DNA of 41,151 nucleotides from Candidatus Omnitrophota bacterium (lineage in GTDB: Bacteria > Omnitrophota > Gorgyraeia > Zapsychrales > JAHFFX01), in contig JAHFFW010000022.1 of NCBI GenBank assembly GCA_023247725.1, positions 1 to 41,151 on the forward strand, given 5' to 3'. This document shows, in pieces, positions 5,323 through 32,841 of this stretch. Each line of letters starts with the position of its first letter. Positions within the stretch are counted from its first letter, which is position 1. The notes under the pieces are model-generated. The model made no database searches. It was not told the origin of the DNA and saw only the letters and a list, made by a program, of their open reading frames with translations. Made by a program: the position numbers and the translations under genes.

Positions 5323-8001
5323 ATGAATGATGAACCCAAAAGCACGGATGTTCGGGATATTGAAATCAAGGAATGGCTCAGTTCTCTAGATTACGTCCTG
5401 GACCACGATACGCCCGAACAGGCCAAAGAACTCCTGCAGCAATTGCAAGTGCGGGCGGAGATTGCCGGCATCAAACTTCCCTTCACTAGTAATACCCCGT
5501 ATATCAATACCATTTCGCCCGATAAGCAGCCTCCCTATCCGGGAAATCGGGACATCGAACGCCGGATCAAAAGCATTATTCGGTGGAATGCCATGGCCAT
5601 GGTCGTGCGGGCCAATCGCGTAGAAAGCGGGATTGGAGGGCATATCTCCACCTATGCCTCGGCGGCCACGCTTTTCGAGGTGGGGTTTAATCACTTTTTC
5701 CGCGGAAAAAATCATCCTTGCGGAGGCGACATTGTCTATTTTCAGGGTCACGCTTCTCCCGGCGTTTACTCTCGAGCCTTTTTAGAAAACCGGCTATCGA
5801 TGGAAAAGTTAGAAAACTTCCGGCGGGAATTGCGCCCCGACGGCGGGCTTTCTTCTTACCCTCACCCCTGGCTTATGCCAGACTTCTGGCAGTTTCCTAC
5901 GGTTTCCATGGGCCTGGCCCCAATCATGGGAATTTATCAGGCGCGTTTTAACCGTTACCTGGAAGACCGGGGTCTCAAGCCAAAGACCGATCAAAAAGTC
6001 TGGGTATTTATGGGGGATGGAGAATGCGATGAACCCGAATCTCTGGGCGCCATCAGCCTGGCCTCTCGCGAGAAACTGGACAATCTGATTTTTGTCATCA
6101 ATTGCAATCTCCAGCGCTTGGACGGCCCTGTGCGGGGCAACGGCAAAATCATTCAAGAGTTGGAAGCCATCTTTCGCGGGACCGGTTGGAACGTGCTCAA
6201 GGTCATCTGGGGCAGCCATTGGGATTCCTTATTAGCCGCCGATAAAGAAGGACTTTTGGTCAAACGTATGGGCGAAATTGTCGACGGCCAATATCAAAAA
6301 TACACAGTCTCCAGCGGTAAGTACATCCGCGATCATTTCTTTGGGACTTATCCAGAATTAATGGACTTGGCCAAAAATTTGACTGATGAACAGATTCGGA
6401 ACCTCAACCGCGGCGGTCATGACCCGGTCAAGGTTTATAGCGCCTATAAGGCAGCCGTAGAAGAAAAAGGTTCGCCGACGGTCATTCTGGCCCAAACCAT
6501 CAAAGGCTATGGTTTGGGGGAAAGCGGCGAAGGGAAAAACATCACCCACCAGCAAAAAAAGCTCAATGAGCTGGAACTCAAAGAATTCCGGGCCCGCTTC
6601 AGTATTCCCATCTCCGATGAAGAAGTCGCCAAGGCCCCGTTTTACAAACCGCCGCCAGATGCGCCGGAAATCAAATATCTGCACGAATGCCGCCAGAAGC
6701 TCGGGGGTTACCTTCCCTCTCGCAGCACCAAAAGTATTCCTCTGCCTGTACCTCCAGAAGATTTGTTTGAAGAATTCTACAAAGGCACTGAAGGCCGCGA
6801 GGTCTCAACCACCATGGTTTATGTCCGGGTCCTGAACAAATTACTGCGCGATCAAGAGCTGGGGAAGCTCATTGTTCCCATCGTCCCGGACGAAGCCCGG
6901 ACCTTTGGCATGGAGGCCTTGTTCCGACAGTGCGGGATCTATTCTCACGTCGGGCAATTGTATGAACCGGTCGACGCGGACAGTTTGATTTATTACAAAG
7001 AAGCCAAAGATGGCCAGATTCTCGAAGAGGGCATTACCGAAGCAGGTTCTATGTCTTCCTTCATCGCCGCCGGAACCGCCTATTCCACTCACGGAATCAA
7101 TACGATTCCGTTTTTTACTTATTATTCCATGTTCGGCCTGCAACGGATTGGCGATTTATTTTGGGCGGCCGCCGACCTGCGCTGCCGGGGATTCCTCGTA
7201 GGCGCAACGTCGGGAAGGACGACCTTGGCCGGCGAGGGATTGCAGCATCAAGATGGTCACAGCCAGCTGTTTGCTTATGCCATTCCGAATCTCATGGCCT
7301 ATGATCCCGCCTTTGCCTTTGAGATTGCCGTTATTATCCGCGACGGCATCAAACGCATGTATCAGGATCAGGAAAGTCTTTTTTATTATCTGACCGTGGG
7401 CAATGACAATTATCCGCAGCCTTCTTTGCCTTCCGGACCGAATGTGAAGGACGGAATCCTCAAAGGCCTTTACCGATTCAAATCTTCCACCTTGAACAAT
7501 CCAACCCTTAAGGCGCATCTGTTCGGCAGTGGCGCCATCATGAATGAGGTCATCAAGGCTCAGCAAATTCTGGAAGAGCAATACAGAATCTCGACGGATA
7601 TCTGGAGCATTACCAGTTATAAGGAATTACGACGCGACGGCCTGGAAACCGAACGCTGGAACATACTTCATCCGTTGGAAAACCCCCGAATTCCTTACGT
7701 TAGCAAAATCTTAAATTCAGAACAGGGAATTTATGTGGCGGCCTCAGATTATGTCAAGGCCCTGCCGGATTCGATCGCCCGCTGGATTCCAGGGTCTTTG
7801 ATTTCACTGGGAACCGACGGGTTTGGTCGCAGCGACGGCCGGCAGGCCTTGCGTGATTTCTTCGAGGTCGATAGCCGGCATGTGGCCTTTGCGGCCATTG
7901 GCGGCCTTTATCGCCAAGGTAAGCTTAAAATGGACTCCGTGCAAAAAGCGGCTCAAGATCTGCAGATTCATCCCGATAAGTTGGATCCGATGGTTTCGTA
8001 A
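5323..8001 (+). CDS. aceE: Pyruvate dehydrogenase E1 component, homodimeric type
   Basis: This 892-residue protein matches the AceE family in length and along its whole sequence (HISTYASAATLFEVGFNHFFRG, GDIVYFQGHASPGVYSRAFLE near the N-terminus; transketolase-like C-terminal half). It decarboxylates pyruvate with thiamine diphosphate and acetylates the lipoyl group of E2. The ThDP/Mg motif GDGECDEPES lies around residue 230, with the closing Asn in VINCNLQRLDG. It is the single-polypeptide (alpha2) E1, unlike the alpha-beta E1 of many Gram-positives. ATG at 5323. It is followed by aceF and lpdA in the same direction, so the complex is complete, though each gene is separated by a heptad-repeat spacer. 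Function is oxidative acetyl-CoA formation linking glycolysis to biosynthesis or the TCA cycle. Confidence 0.97.
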   Translation: MNDEPKSTDVRDIEIKEWLSSLDYVLDHDTPEQAKELLQQLQVRAEIAGIKLPFTSNTPYINTISPDKQPPYPGNRDIERRIKSIIRWNAMAMVVRANRVESGIGGHISTYASAATLFEVGFNHFFRGKNHPCGGDIVYFQGHASPGVYSRAFLENRLSMEKLENFRRELRPDGGLSSYPHPWLMPDFWQFPTVSMGLAPIMGIYQARFNRYLEDRGLKPKTDQKVWVFMGDGECDEPESLGAISLASREKLDNLIFVINCNLQRLDGPVRGNGKIIQELEAIFRGTGWNVLKVIWGSHWDSLLAADKEGLLVKRMGEIVDGQYQKYTVSSGKYIRDHFFGTYPELMDLAKNLTDEQIRNLNRGGHDPVKVYSAYKAAVEEKGSPTVILAQTIKGYGLGESGEGKNITHQQKKLNELELKEFRARFSIPISDEEVAKAPFYKPPPDAPEIKYLHECRQKLGGYLPSRSTKSIPLPVPPEDLFEEFYKGTEGREVSTTMVYVRVLNKLLRDQELGKLIVPIVPDEARTFGMEALFRQCGIYSHVGQLYEPVDADSLIYYKEAKDGQILEEGITEAGSMSSFIAAGTAYSTHGINTIPFFTYYSMFGLQRIGDLFWAAADLRCRGFLVGATSGRTTLAGEGLQHQDGHSQLFAYAIPNLMAYDPAFAFEIAVIIRDGIKRMYQDQESLFYYLTVGNDNYPQPSLPSGPNVKDGILKGLYRFKSSTLNNPTLKAHLFGSGAIMNEVIKAQQILEEQYRISTDIWSITSYKELRRDGLETERWNILHPLENPRIPYVSKILNSEQGIYVAASDYVKALPDSIARWIPGSLISLGTDGFGRSDGRQALRDFFEVDSRHVAFAAIGGLYRQGKLKMDSVQKAAQDLQIHPDKLDPMVS

Positions 8002-8082: not shown

Positions 8083-9402
8083 ATGCCCACCACTGACTTC
8101 AAACTTCCCGGTCTCGGTGAGAACATCACCTCGGGTGTCGTCACGAAAATCATGGTGAAGGTCGGCGATACCGTCAAAAAAGATCAGATGGTGATCGAAT
8201 TAGAGACCGACAAAGCAGTTCTGGAAGTTCCCTCCCCCATGGAGGGCGTGATTAAAGAAATCCTCCTCAAGGTTGGCCAATCCGCCAAAGTTGGTCAAGT
8301 TGTTATGCGCCTCGAGGAAGGGGCAACAACCACCGCGACTCCACCAACGGTTGCCACGCCGCAAAAGCCCAAGGAAGAAGAAAAAAAAGAGACTCCTTCT
8401 GCGCCCCCCGCTTCACTGAAAACCGAAATCCCCACCCAAACAGCGCCGGTAGAAAAAGAATTCCCGCTCCCGGATTATGAACCATCCCTGGCAAAGGATG
8501 TTCCCGCTGCCCCCTCTGTGCGCCGCTTTGCTCGAGAGATTGGCATTGAAATCAGTCAAGTTCCCGGCAGTGGACCAAAAAGCAGGATTTCCATCGACGA
8601 CGTAAAGGCGTTCGCCAAGGCGATCAATACCGGCGCGACCGGGCGTCCATCCAGCGACAGTCATGTTCTTCAACCCCCTCTCCCCGATTTTACCAAATGG
8701 GGCGGGGTTGAACGTCAAGCCATGAGCATGGTGCGAAAAAAAACGGCCGAGCATTTAAGTCTCGCCTGGTCCATGATTCCTCATGTGACGCAGTTTGACA
8801 AGGCTGATGTTACCGAGCTGGAAAAACTACGGAAACGCTTCGCCAAAAAAGCCGAGAGTAAAGGCGGCAAGCTTACGATCACCGCCTTTCTTTTGAAGGT
8901 GTTGGCCGGCGCCTTAAAAGTTTTCCCCCAATTCAATGCGAGTGTCGATATGCCCCGCAATGAAATCATTTACAAAAAATATTTTCATATTGGTGTCGCC
9001 GTCGACACCGATCGGGGTCTGATTGTTCCCGTCATCCGCGATGTGGATAAAAAAGGGATCTTTGATCTGGCGGTCGAACTCGCGCAGATGGCGGAGAAAG
9101 CCCGCAACCGCAAAACCACGATTGAGGAAATGCAGGGAAGTTCTTTCACGCTGACGAATTTAGGAGGAGTGGGCGGCACGGCTTTTACCCCCATCATCAA
9201 TTGGCCGGATGTGGCCATCCTCGGAGTCTCACGAGCGAACCTTGAACCAATTTATATCGAAGGCCAACTTGTTCCTCGCCTCTTGCTTCCCCTTTCTTTA
9301 TCTTACGACCATCGCCTCATCGATGGAGCGGACGGGGCCCGATTTTTGCGTTGGGTTTCCGAGGCGATTCAGCAGCCTTTGCTGATTGAGCTGGAGGGTT
9401 AG
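8083..9402 (+). CDS. aceF: Dihydrolipoamide acetyltransferase (PDH E2)
   Basis: This 439-residue E2 has one lipoyl domain (about 1-78, lipoylated Lys44 in ETDKAVLEV), a Pro/Ala/Thr/Glu-rich flexible linker (about 80-135), a peripheral-subunit-binding domain (about 142-178, PSVRRFAREIGIEISQVPGSG) and the catalytic acyltransferase core (about 210-439) with the active-site DHRLIDGA motif near residue 410. It moves the acetyl group from E1 to CoA and forms the core of the complex that binds E1 and E3. Start ATG 8083 follows an AAAGGA ribosome-binding site. One lipoyl domain is the small end of the AceF range, where E. coli has three. It ends with TAG. Confidence 0.97.
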   Translation: MPTTDFKLPGLGENITSGVVTKIMVKVGDTVKKDQMVIELETDKAVLEVPSPMEGVIKEILLKVGQSAKVGQVVMRLEEGATTTATPPTVATPQKPKEEEKKETPSAPPASLKTEIPTQTAPVEKEFPLPDYEPSLAKDVPAAPSVRRFAREIGIEISQVPGSGPKSRISIDDVKAFAKAINTGATGRPSSDSHVLQPPLPDFTKWGGVERQAMSMVRKKTAEHLSLAWSMIPHVTQFDKADVTELEKLRKRFAKKAESKGGKLTITAFLLKVLAGALKVFPQFNASVDMPRNEIIYKKYFHIGVAVDTDRGLIVPVIRDVDKKGIFDLAVELAQMAEKARNRKTTIEEMQGSSFTLTNLGGVGGTAFTPIINWPDVAILGVSRANLEPIYIEGQLVPRLLLPLSLSYDHRLIDGADGARFLRWVSEAIQQPLLIELEG

Positions 9403-15853: not shown

Positions 15854-15954
15854 TGGGTCCTCCTTCTTCTCTGCTTCTCTTAAGTTGAATGATTCCCGGA
15901 TGCAAAACAAGGGGTATTATACGACGGTGGTCGGGGCGTGACAATTTATTTCTA

Positions 15955-16102
15955 GGGTATAGGGTGATGGGTATAGGGTATAGGCGGAATAGATATTGTA
16001 AGACCGCCGGAAAAGGAAATTCTTTAAAACCTTTTGGTCGTTTGAAATTTGGATTTTGGATTTGTTTGGAATTTGGTCATTGTAAATCTATCCGCTATCC
16101 GC
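15955..16102. repeat. Heptad-periodic inverted repeat (GGGTATA / TATCCGC)
   Basis: Left arm GGGTATA, GGGTGAT, GGGTATA, GGGTATA, GGCGGAA (15955-15989). Right arm TATCCGC, TATCCGC (16089-16102), the complement of the GCGGATA-like phase. Between them, about 16050-16078, the word TTTGGA(A) repeats at a similar period. The array fills the 250-base gap between the FAD-oxidase stop and the secreted-protein gene. Confidence 0.8.
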
Positions 16103-16104
16103 TG

Positions 16105-17580
16105 CTACGGAAGTTCCTCCCGAAACATCTCCCGGTAATGCCGATACCAGTCGCTCTGAAAACGTTCCGTCGGGTCGTACTTTAATTTCAATTTCAAAAA
16201 ATCCACGAATTGCGGATAACAGGCCAAGACCTGCTCCTTGGTCGCCCAGCGATGATAGGTCAAATAATAGCTTCCCTTAAACTCGATGGCGCGGTCAATG
16301 AGGCGGCGAAAATGTTCCTGCGCCTCTTTGATTCCTTCCGGGGTATGCTCCACATGCAGATTTAAAATGACGCAAATAAAATTCTTTCTGGCCCAGGCCA
16401 AAAAACTTTCCTTATCCTCTTCAATCCAGCGGACGGTGCCATAGATGAGCGGGACATTGTATTTCAAAAAATCCTGACGCACTGCCTCCATAAAATCCAC
16501 GAGCTGATCGCGGGGGACATAAATCTCGGTGATCATCTCCGATCCCGGATGGGTGGATTTGAGCTGCTGATCGACGAGTGTATGATAATTCTCGATATAG
16601 GTTGCCAAGTCGGCTGTGTCCGACCAATAGATCTGCCCGGCGGTTTTGAGGTAATACCGGGAATATTTTTGGTAAGCCTCGGCAGGATTTGTATGAGCCA
16701 GGTAATATAATTGCCGCTAATCCGAATCAGTTTGTTTCAGAGGATTGGCGGTCAAAGGAGTCGCGTGATCCACCGGCGCATACGTAGGAAATATTCCTTC
16801 GCGCATGAAATTCTCGGAGATCTTGTCAGTCGAATACTGAAAGTCTCCGTACAGATATCCGGCCTTGATCCGTTCTTGAAACTTTTCGACAAGATTGTTG
16901 ATGGAAATGATCTCCACATCGCGGCGGACTCTCATCCTTGTTCCCAACCGCAATTGAATCTGAGTAATCACCCCGAACAATCCATAACCGCCGATGACTA
17001 AACGAAAAAGCTCGGGGTTGTGCCGGCGACTGCAGCGCTTCATTTTTCCGTCGGCATCAATCAACAAAAATGATTCCACCTGGTCAATGATCGGTTTGCA
17101 GGTCAATGCCCGGCCGTGGGCGTTGGCCGACAATGCGCCGCCGATGCTCAGGCGACTGGTCCCGGTTTGCTTTTGGATAATTCCCCATTGGTGGCGATCG
17201 CCTTCTTGCGCCTTGAGTAGATATCCCACCAATTCCGGCCATTGGATTCCGGCCTCCACTTCAATCATTCCCCGACGGCGATCAAAGGCTAGGATCTCAT
17301 TCATTCGGCTCATATCAATGAGGAACGTGCCAGCTCCGAACTGTTGGCCTCCCATGGCATGGCGTCCGGCGCAGATGCTGACGGCCAGATGCCCTCGTTT
17401 GGCCTGCTTGATGAGGGCAATGACCTCGGCCGTCAATTCAGGGTAATGAATGCTGTGAACCGTTGTTTCATTGAGGGCCGAATGAACATCATTAACAACC
17501 GGATTTATTTGCGCCAGCACCGGCGAGGAAAGCATTGCTGCGATCAAAAGACCGGCAAAGACTAAAGAAATTTTTTTCAT
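16105..17580 (-). pseudogene. Secreted FAD-linked oxidase interrupted by one in-frame TAG
   Basis: From ATG 17580 the frame encodes a signal peptide (MKKISLVFAGLLIAAMLSSPVLAQ), then an FAD-binding (PCMH-type) domain: SICAGRHAMGGQQFGAGTFLIDMSRMN, EVEAGIQWPEL, QTGTSRLSIGGALSANAHGR, VIGGYGLFGVITQIQLRLG. After 287 codons a TAG occurs at 16717-16719. The same frame continues without gap for 203 codons (RQLYYLAHTNPAEAYQKYS..., TEIYVPRDQ, HVEHTPEGIKEAQEHF, YPQFVDFLKLKLKYDPTERFQS) to a second TAG at 16105. The second part is the normal C-terminal half of this oxidase family. Without the internal TAG the protein would be 491 residues. Because TAG also ends this gene and others here, a nonsense mutation (perhaps TGG to TAG) is more likely than recoding. 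The ATG overlaps the stop of the upstream membrane-protein gene. Confidence 0.85.
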
Positions 17581-18236
17581 TGCATTGTTTCTCGGGGAAA
17601 AGGTTTGAGAGCTTGACCGCAAAAGAATAACAGCGCGAACGAGGCCATCAGAAACAGATGATAAATCGTGTTGTGGTTCAAATACACGGGATCCCAGGCC
17701 AGCCGCGCATTTTGGATGTACGACCCCGCTAAAGCCAAAAGTAATCCGGCAACACCCAGGAATGCCGTCCCCTGTTTTGTTTGAACCCCAAGCTGGCCAA
17801 GCACGACGAGCAAAAAGACAACGGCCGGTAAATAATTGGCGATGACAAACAGGTAATCCGGGAGGAAGAAGAGGACGAGCGGGATATAAAGACTCAATTG
17901 CACAACCGATAATCGCCGCAGGATCTGATTCCATCGAGCCTCTGGATAGATGGCCGCGCTCGCCTGCCAAAGCCCGAAGATCGCTGGGCCGATGGCCAAT
18001 AAAATCCATCGCCAAAGGATTTTAAAACCCCAGGACGAGCGGGCTGAAAAATAGGCGTGGACCATCGCTCCTAAAAGGGCGGCCCAGCCGCTGGAATGAA
18101 AAAACAGGACCAGCGACGAGCGGAAATAGTTGGAGGGCGTTTTGCGCACCAAGAGCCAGGCGAATAAAAAATTCTCAATGGATAAAAAAAAGTTGGTCAA
18201 GGCCACAATAGAATCGGCGTTGGTCATAGATTTCAT
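17577..18236 (-). CDS. Multi-pass membrane protein (DUF6962-like)
   Basis: From ATG 18236 this is a 219-residue protein with about seven hydrophobic segments (e.g. VALTNFFLSIENFLFAWLLV, WILLAIGPAIFGLWQA, LVLFFLPDYLFVIANYL, VVFLLVVLGQLGV, TIYHLFLMASFALLFFCG). It resembles 7TM proteins of unknown function of the DUF6962 type; the assignment is tentative. An upstream in-frame start at 18296 is rejected because it would translate the REP palindromes. The stop overlaps the ATG of the secreted FAD-oxidase gene (ATGA), so the two were made together. A membrane partner, such as an electron acceptor, for the oxidase is possible but not shown. No heme- or quinone-binding signature is obvious. Confidence 0.7.
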   Translation of the reverse strand: MKSMTNADSIVALTNFFLSIENFLFAWLLVRKTPSNYFRSSLVLFFHSSGWAALLGAMVHAYFSARSSWGFKILWRWILLAIGPAIFGLWQASAAIYPEARWNQILRRLSVVQLSLYIPLVLFFLPDYLFVIANYLPAVVFLLVVLGQLGVQTKQGTAFLGVAGLLLALAGSYIQNARLAWDPVYLNHNTIYHLFLMASFALLFFCGQALKPFPRETMQ

Positions 18237-18252
18237 TGCTACGGTAGCCACC

Positions 18253-18310
18253 CTCTCACCCCGGGAGTGAGAGAAGCGCATAAATGATGCTCTCACTCCC
18301 GGGGTGAGAG
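18253..18310. repeat. Doublet of CTCTCAC...GTGAGAG palindromes in opposite orientation
   Basis: Copy 1 (18253-18273) is the exact reverse complement of copy 2 (18290-18310), with 16 bases between. Each is a 7-base-arm palindrome around a CCCGGG centre. Copy 2 is identical over 21 bases to the one at 5163-5186. Head-to-head pairing is reminiscent of REP doublets (BIMEs). Confidence 0.8.
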
Positions 18311-32806: not shown

Positions 32807-32841
32807 TAGCGGGTAGCGGGTAGCGGGTAGCGGGTAGTGGT
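32807..32841. repeat. Heptanucleotide tandem repeat (TAGCGGG)
   Basis: Four perfect copies of TAGCGGG in direct tandem (32807-32834) followed by TAGTGGT. The 193-base cysE-cysS gap also holds a diffuse inverted repeat with GAGTTTG/GGAGTTA on the left (about 32853) and its complement AACTC...TAACTCC on the right (about 32977). No gene is seen in this gap. Confidence 0.92.

Follow-up and report, generated by a model that had tools for sequence, protein, structure and literature searches.

An in-frame TAG interrupts a conserved oxidase gene

The genome of a Candidatus Omnitrophota bacterium (assembly GCA_023247725.1) carries a gene for a FAD-dependent oxidase whose frame is interrupted by one TAG codon, and the question is what this stop represents: a mutation, a sequence error or a codon that is read through. 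The gene is located in the window, i.e., the whole stretch of 41,151 nucleotides of contig JAHFFW010000022.1 that was analysed (Table 1). The first-pass annotation, made from the letters of this stretch, had placed the TAG at 16717-16719 with 203 open codons beyond it. Coordinates and codon count were right, and the strand, absent from that annotation, is the minus strand. Besides the TAG at codon 288, neither a second stop nor a frameshift was found inside the 491 codons. By eye, the N-terminus MKKISLVFAGLLIAAMLSSPVLAQ is a plausible signal peptide. Adjoining the 3' end of the gene is a low-complexity intergenic segment (15950-16100) with TATAGGG-like units and GAAATTTGGATTTTGGATTTG; the 19-base core of the latter motif has only two occurrences in the genome at one mismatch or fewer. 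Further along the window, positions 32807-32837 hold a short exact tandem repeat (TAGCGGG, 4.4 copies).

Table 1. Positions in the window of the oxidase gene, its parts and the gene upstream.
Feature	Position	Strand	Description
Oxidase gene	16105..17580	-	FAD-dependent, PF01565, GLDH/DprE1-like fold; 491 codons on read-through, one TAG inside
Start codon ATG	17580-17578	-	
Pre-stop part	16720..17580	-	287 codons; covers the predicted signal peptide and, at residues 46-184, the FAD_binding_4 domain
In-frame TAG, codon 288	16717..16719	-	Replaces an invariant Trp
Post-stop open frame	16108..16716	-	203 codons, rest of the oxidase
Terminal TAG	16105..16107	-	Natural stop
DUF6962 gene	17577..18296	-	Just upstream of the oxidase gene, with its TGA and the ATG of the oxidase overlapping as ATGA

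Both sides of the stop encode a single FAD-dependent enzyme

The sequence past the TAG had been read as the second half of the same oxidase. A tblastn match to an intact homologue runs without gaps from residue 11 to residue 490, and an AlphaFold model of the read-through protein, built with 30 homologues (mean pLDDT of 88.6), matches L-galactonolactone dehydrogenase (GLDH) and DprE1 across its full length by structure comparison; the two halves are therefore one protein. An arrangement as two separate genes was considered and rejected: the homologues are continuous as one protein, and the post-stop part has no nearby start. Its earliest candidate start is a TTG 36 codons past the TAG, with no Shine-Dalgarno-like sequence found at this codon, and its earliest ATG lies 60 codons past the TAG. 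Homologues that end at the TAG site and are followed by a separate second gene, a case which the first-pass annotation had itself set against its reading, were looked for and not found.

The FAD_binding_4 domain scored 75 bits against a gathering score of 26.4, which places the protein in PF01565. With the GLDH/aldonolactone oxidase group of VAO-type FAD oxidases (PF01565) it shares this domain and the full-length fold (Foldseek E-value of 1.4e-26), but identity is about 16% and the score falls far under the NCBIfam cut-offs for these enzymes. Decaprenylphosphoryl-beta-D-ribose oxidase (DprE1) provides the top PDB sequence matches by phmmer and also matches in fold; the oxidase differs from it by a signal-peptide-like N-terminus and by a score of 78.7 bits on an NCBIfam model with a cut-off of 500. 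The gene product is plausibly a sugar-oxidase-like FAD-dependent enzyme, with export suggested by the predicted signal peptide. In the structural model, codon 288 sits at the start of a helix (residues 285-297), and a product truncated there would lack everything beyond it, including the strands at residues 346-411 and the C-terminal helices.

Codon 288 is a tryptophan codon in homologues

The first-pass annotation placed a Trp at this point in homologues, i.e., a change from TGG to TAG, and the alignments bear this out. Across 81 homologues drawn from many phyla and aligned here, codon 288 is TGG in 80 and TTA (Leu) in the remaining one, and Trp 288 is invariant in our homologue alignment A1; the ancestral residue is Trp. 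No stop at codon 288 was found in the other homologues, either among the 81 aligned loci or among the matches in the order. Four loci of Candidatus Omnitrophota metagenome-assembled genomes (L039, L040, L048 and L083) are among the closest matches in named collections, and the family is also found in Acidobacteria, Planctomycetota, Methylomirabilota, Nitrospira, Massilia and others.

The frequency of stops in the oxidase family was judged from 80 loci. A homologue in Massilia sp. ZL223 (L105, about 6184-6186) has a single in-frame TAG that aligns to approximately residue 87, with the flanking frame intact. It has no connection with the TAG at codon 288 and shows that sporadic stops arise independently in the family. 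A stop had also been reported for the related copy in genome G051, and a shared TAG was rejected in this case: codon 288 of G051 is TGG (Trp), and the reported stop is the terminal stop of that gene, absent from a shorter profile match ending two codons earlier.

Constraint is not relaxed beyond the stop

Identity to the nearest relative is 63.3% before the stop and 73.7% after it. At sites 90% conserved in the other homologues, the window protein deviates at 6 of 73 positions before the stop and at 2 of 66 after it, and by the same measure its sister L039 deviates at 3 of 70 and 3 of 63. The post-stop part is thus no less conserved than the pre-stop part, which argues that selection acted on the gene until very recent times. 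With constraint past the stop not relaxed, the TAG must be very young if it is real. Synonymous divergence (dS) has reached saturation between the nearest relatives, so dN/dS is unusable and no date can be given to the TAG.

We consider it probable that the TAG is a real and very recent nonsense mutation, making the gene an incipient pseudogene or a strain variant. The single disabling change falls at a codon that is a sense codon in homologues, and further decay is absent from the frame. The interpretation offered beforehand (recent pseudogene, strain variant, assembly error or programmed readthrough, with genome-wide recoding judged unlikely) is supported, and the TGG-to-TAG change at an invariant Trp is confirmed. 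The main rival to a real mutation is an error in the assembly: the true base would be G, the codon TGG and the gene intact. Only one base departs, every comparable neighbouring gene is near full length, and the lack of relaxed constraint and of further decay past the stop is expected under an error as well. The source is an assembly of 52 contigs, estimated to be 91% complete, from a phylum known mostly from metagenomes. However, substitution errors in a consensus are rarer than insertions or deletions, and a survey of about 0.44 Mb of the genome turned up no second gene interrupted by a stop. On balance, an error seems unlikely, with a chance that is far from negligible.

TAG is an ordinary stop codon in this genome

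Recoding of TAG throughout the genome, by pyrrolysine or a suppressor tRNA, would account for a TAG lying in frame within a conserved gene, and was thought unlikely from the outset. A suppressor tRNA and PylS, proposed beforehand as a check, were searched for. Release factor 1 is present and well above its cut-off (480 bits against 423). In this genome, about 91% complete, no PylS was found above cut-off (matches of at most 34 bits against 178), nor any anticodon CUA among the 42 tRNAs above cut-off. The same PylS model also matched 13 of 14 control genomes, only one of them above cut-off, and the weak matches are probably other class II synthetases. TAG also ends other genes: in sampled stretches covering about 0.44 Mb of this genome, from which both stop usage and interrupted genes were surveyed, it terminates 57 of the 329 open reading frames of at least 200 amino acids. 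The window agrees with what had been noted there, as TAG closes the oxidase gene itself (16107-16105), aceF (8083-9402) and a "cyclase" gene (1409-2830) whose product is a GGDEF protein. Wider interruption by TAG was examined and rejected: same-frame open stretches past stops mostly begin near a start codon, like separate genes, and when ten less clear stretches were scanned as joined proteins, none had a single domain across the stop. Recoding is largely refuted by these data, and we give it almost no credence.

A leaky stop is another way to reconcile the TAG with a conserved second half, in that readthrough at a low rate would lower the expression of a still useful enzyme. Such leakiness has been proposed for many in-frame stops of bacteria. 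Purifying selection past the stop is compatible with this, and Belinky et al. 2021 (PMC7918605), who describe numerous in-frame stops in bacterial genes under purifying selection, argue that they are common and in some cases kept. The oxidase resembles these genes in its single in-frame stop with conserved flanks. In that study, however, the large-scale test was limited to stops shared by orthologues because many cases might be artefacts, and its stops were shared by at least two species, whereas the oxidase stop is present in one genome and in no homologue. The lack of a CUA tRNA among the 42 detected also stands against leakiness, as does the RNA downstream of the codon, which folds no better than shuffles (z = 0.09). 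Without conservation of the stop in orthologues or a stimulatory structure past it, programmed readthrough has no positive support. Functional leakiness is in our view improbable, and slightly more so is a real TAG with some full-length enzyme made by leaky reading of UAG, the stop acting as a reversible expression switch in the population.

Loss of the oxidase may be tolerated

Under a nonsense mutation, a single G-to-A transition would have converted the invariant Trp codon into TAG. It would be a very recent event, either of this lineage or of only some members of the sampled population. Ribosomes served by release factor 1 would terminate after residue 287, and the fragment so made would keep most of the FAD-binding domain but miss the C-terminal portion of the fold. 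This fragment is probably inactive. Such an event is of an ordinary kind, a G-to-A substitution that puts a stop into an accessory gene, and nothing about the oxidase TAG is evidence of a new mode of decoding. The gene would be either a clean example of gene loss caught at its first step or a one-base metagenome assembly error mimicking one.

Matches to the oxidase were found in 9 of the 81 genomes of the order, and a close full-length form in only three (this genome, G001 and G051), of which only the copy studied here has an internal stop. The gene is thus sporadic and accessory in the order, so that its loss is tolerable. No second, intact copy was found elsewhere in the same genome. The nearest relative, G001, belongs to another genus of the same family and carries an intact copy, 66% identical, with a gene order around it identical to that of the window. 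The DUF6962 relative of G001 occupies the same location and is only 35% identical, compared with 56-79% for the other neighbours examined. In another genome, 25 residues (L180, G004:C73, 5851-5925) share 80% identity with the oxidase C-terminus; no upstream part lies nearby, and they look like what is left of a deleted oxidase copy.
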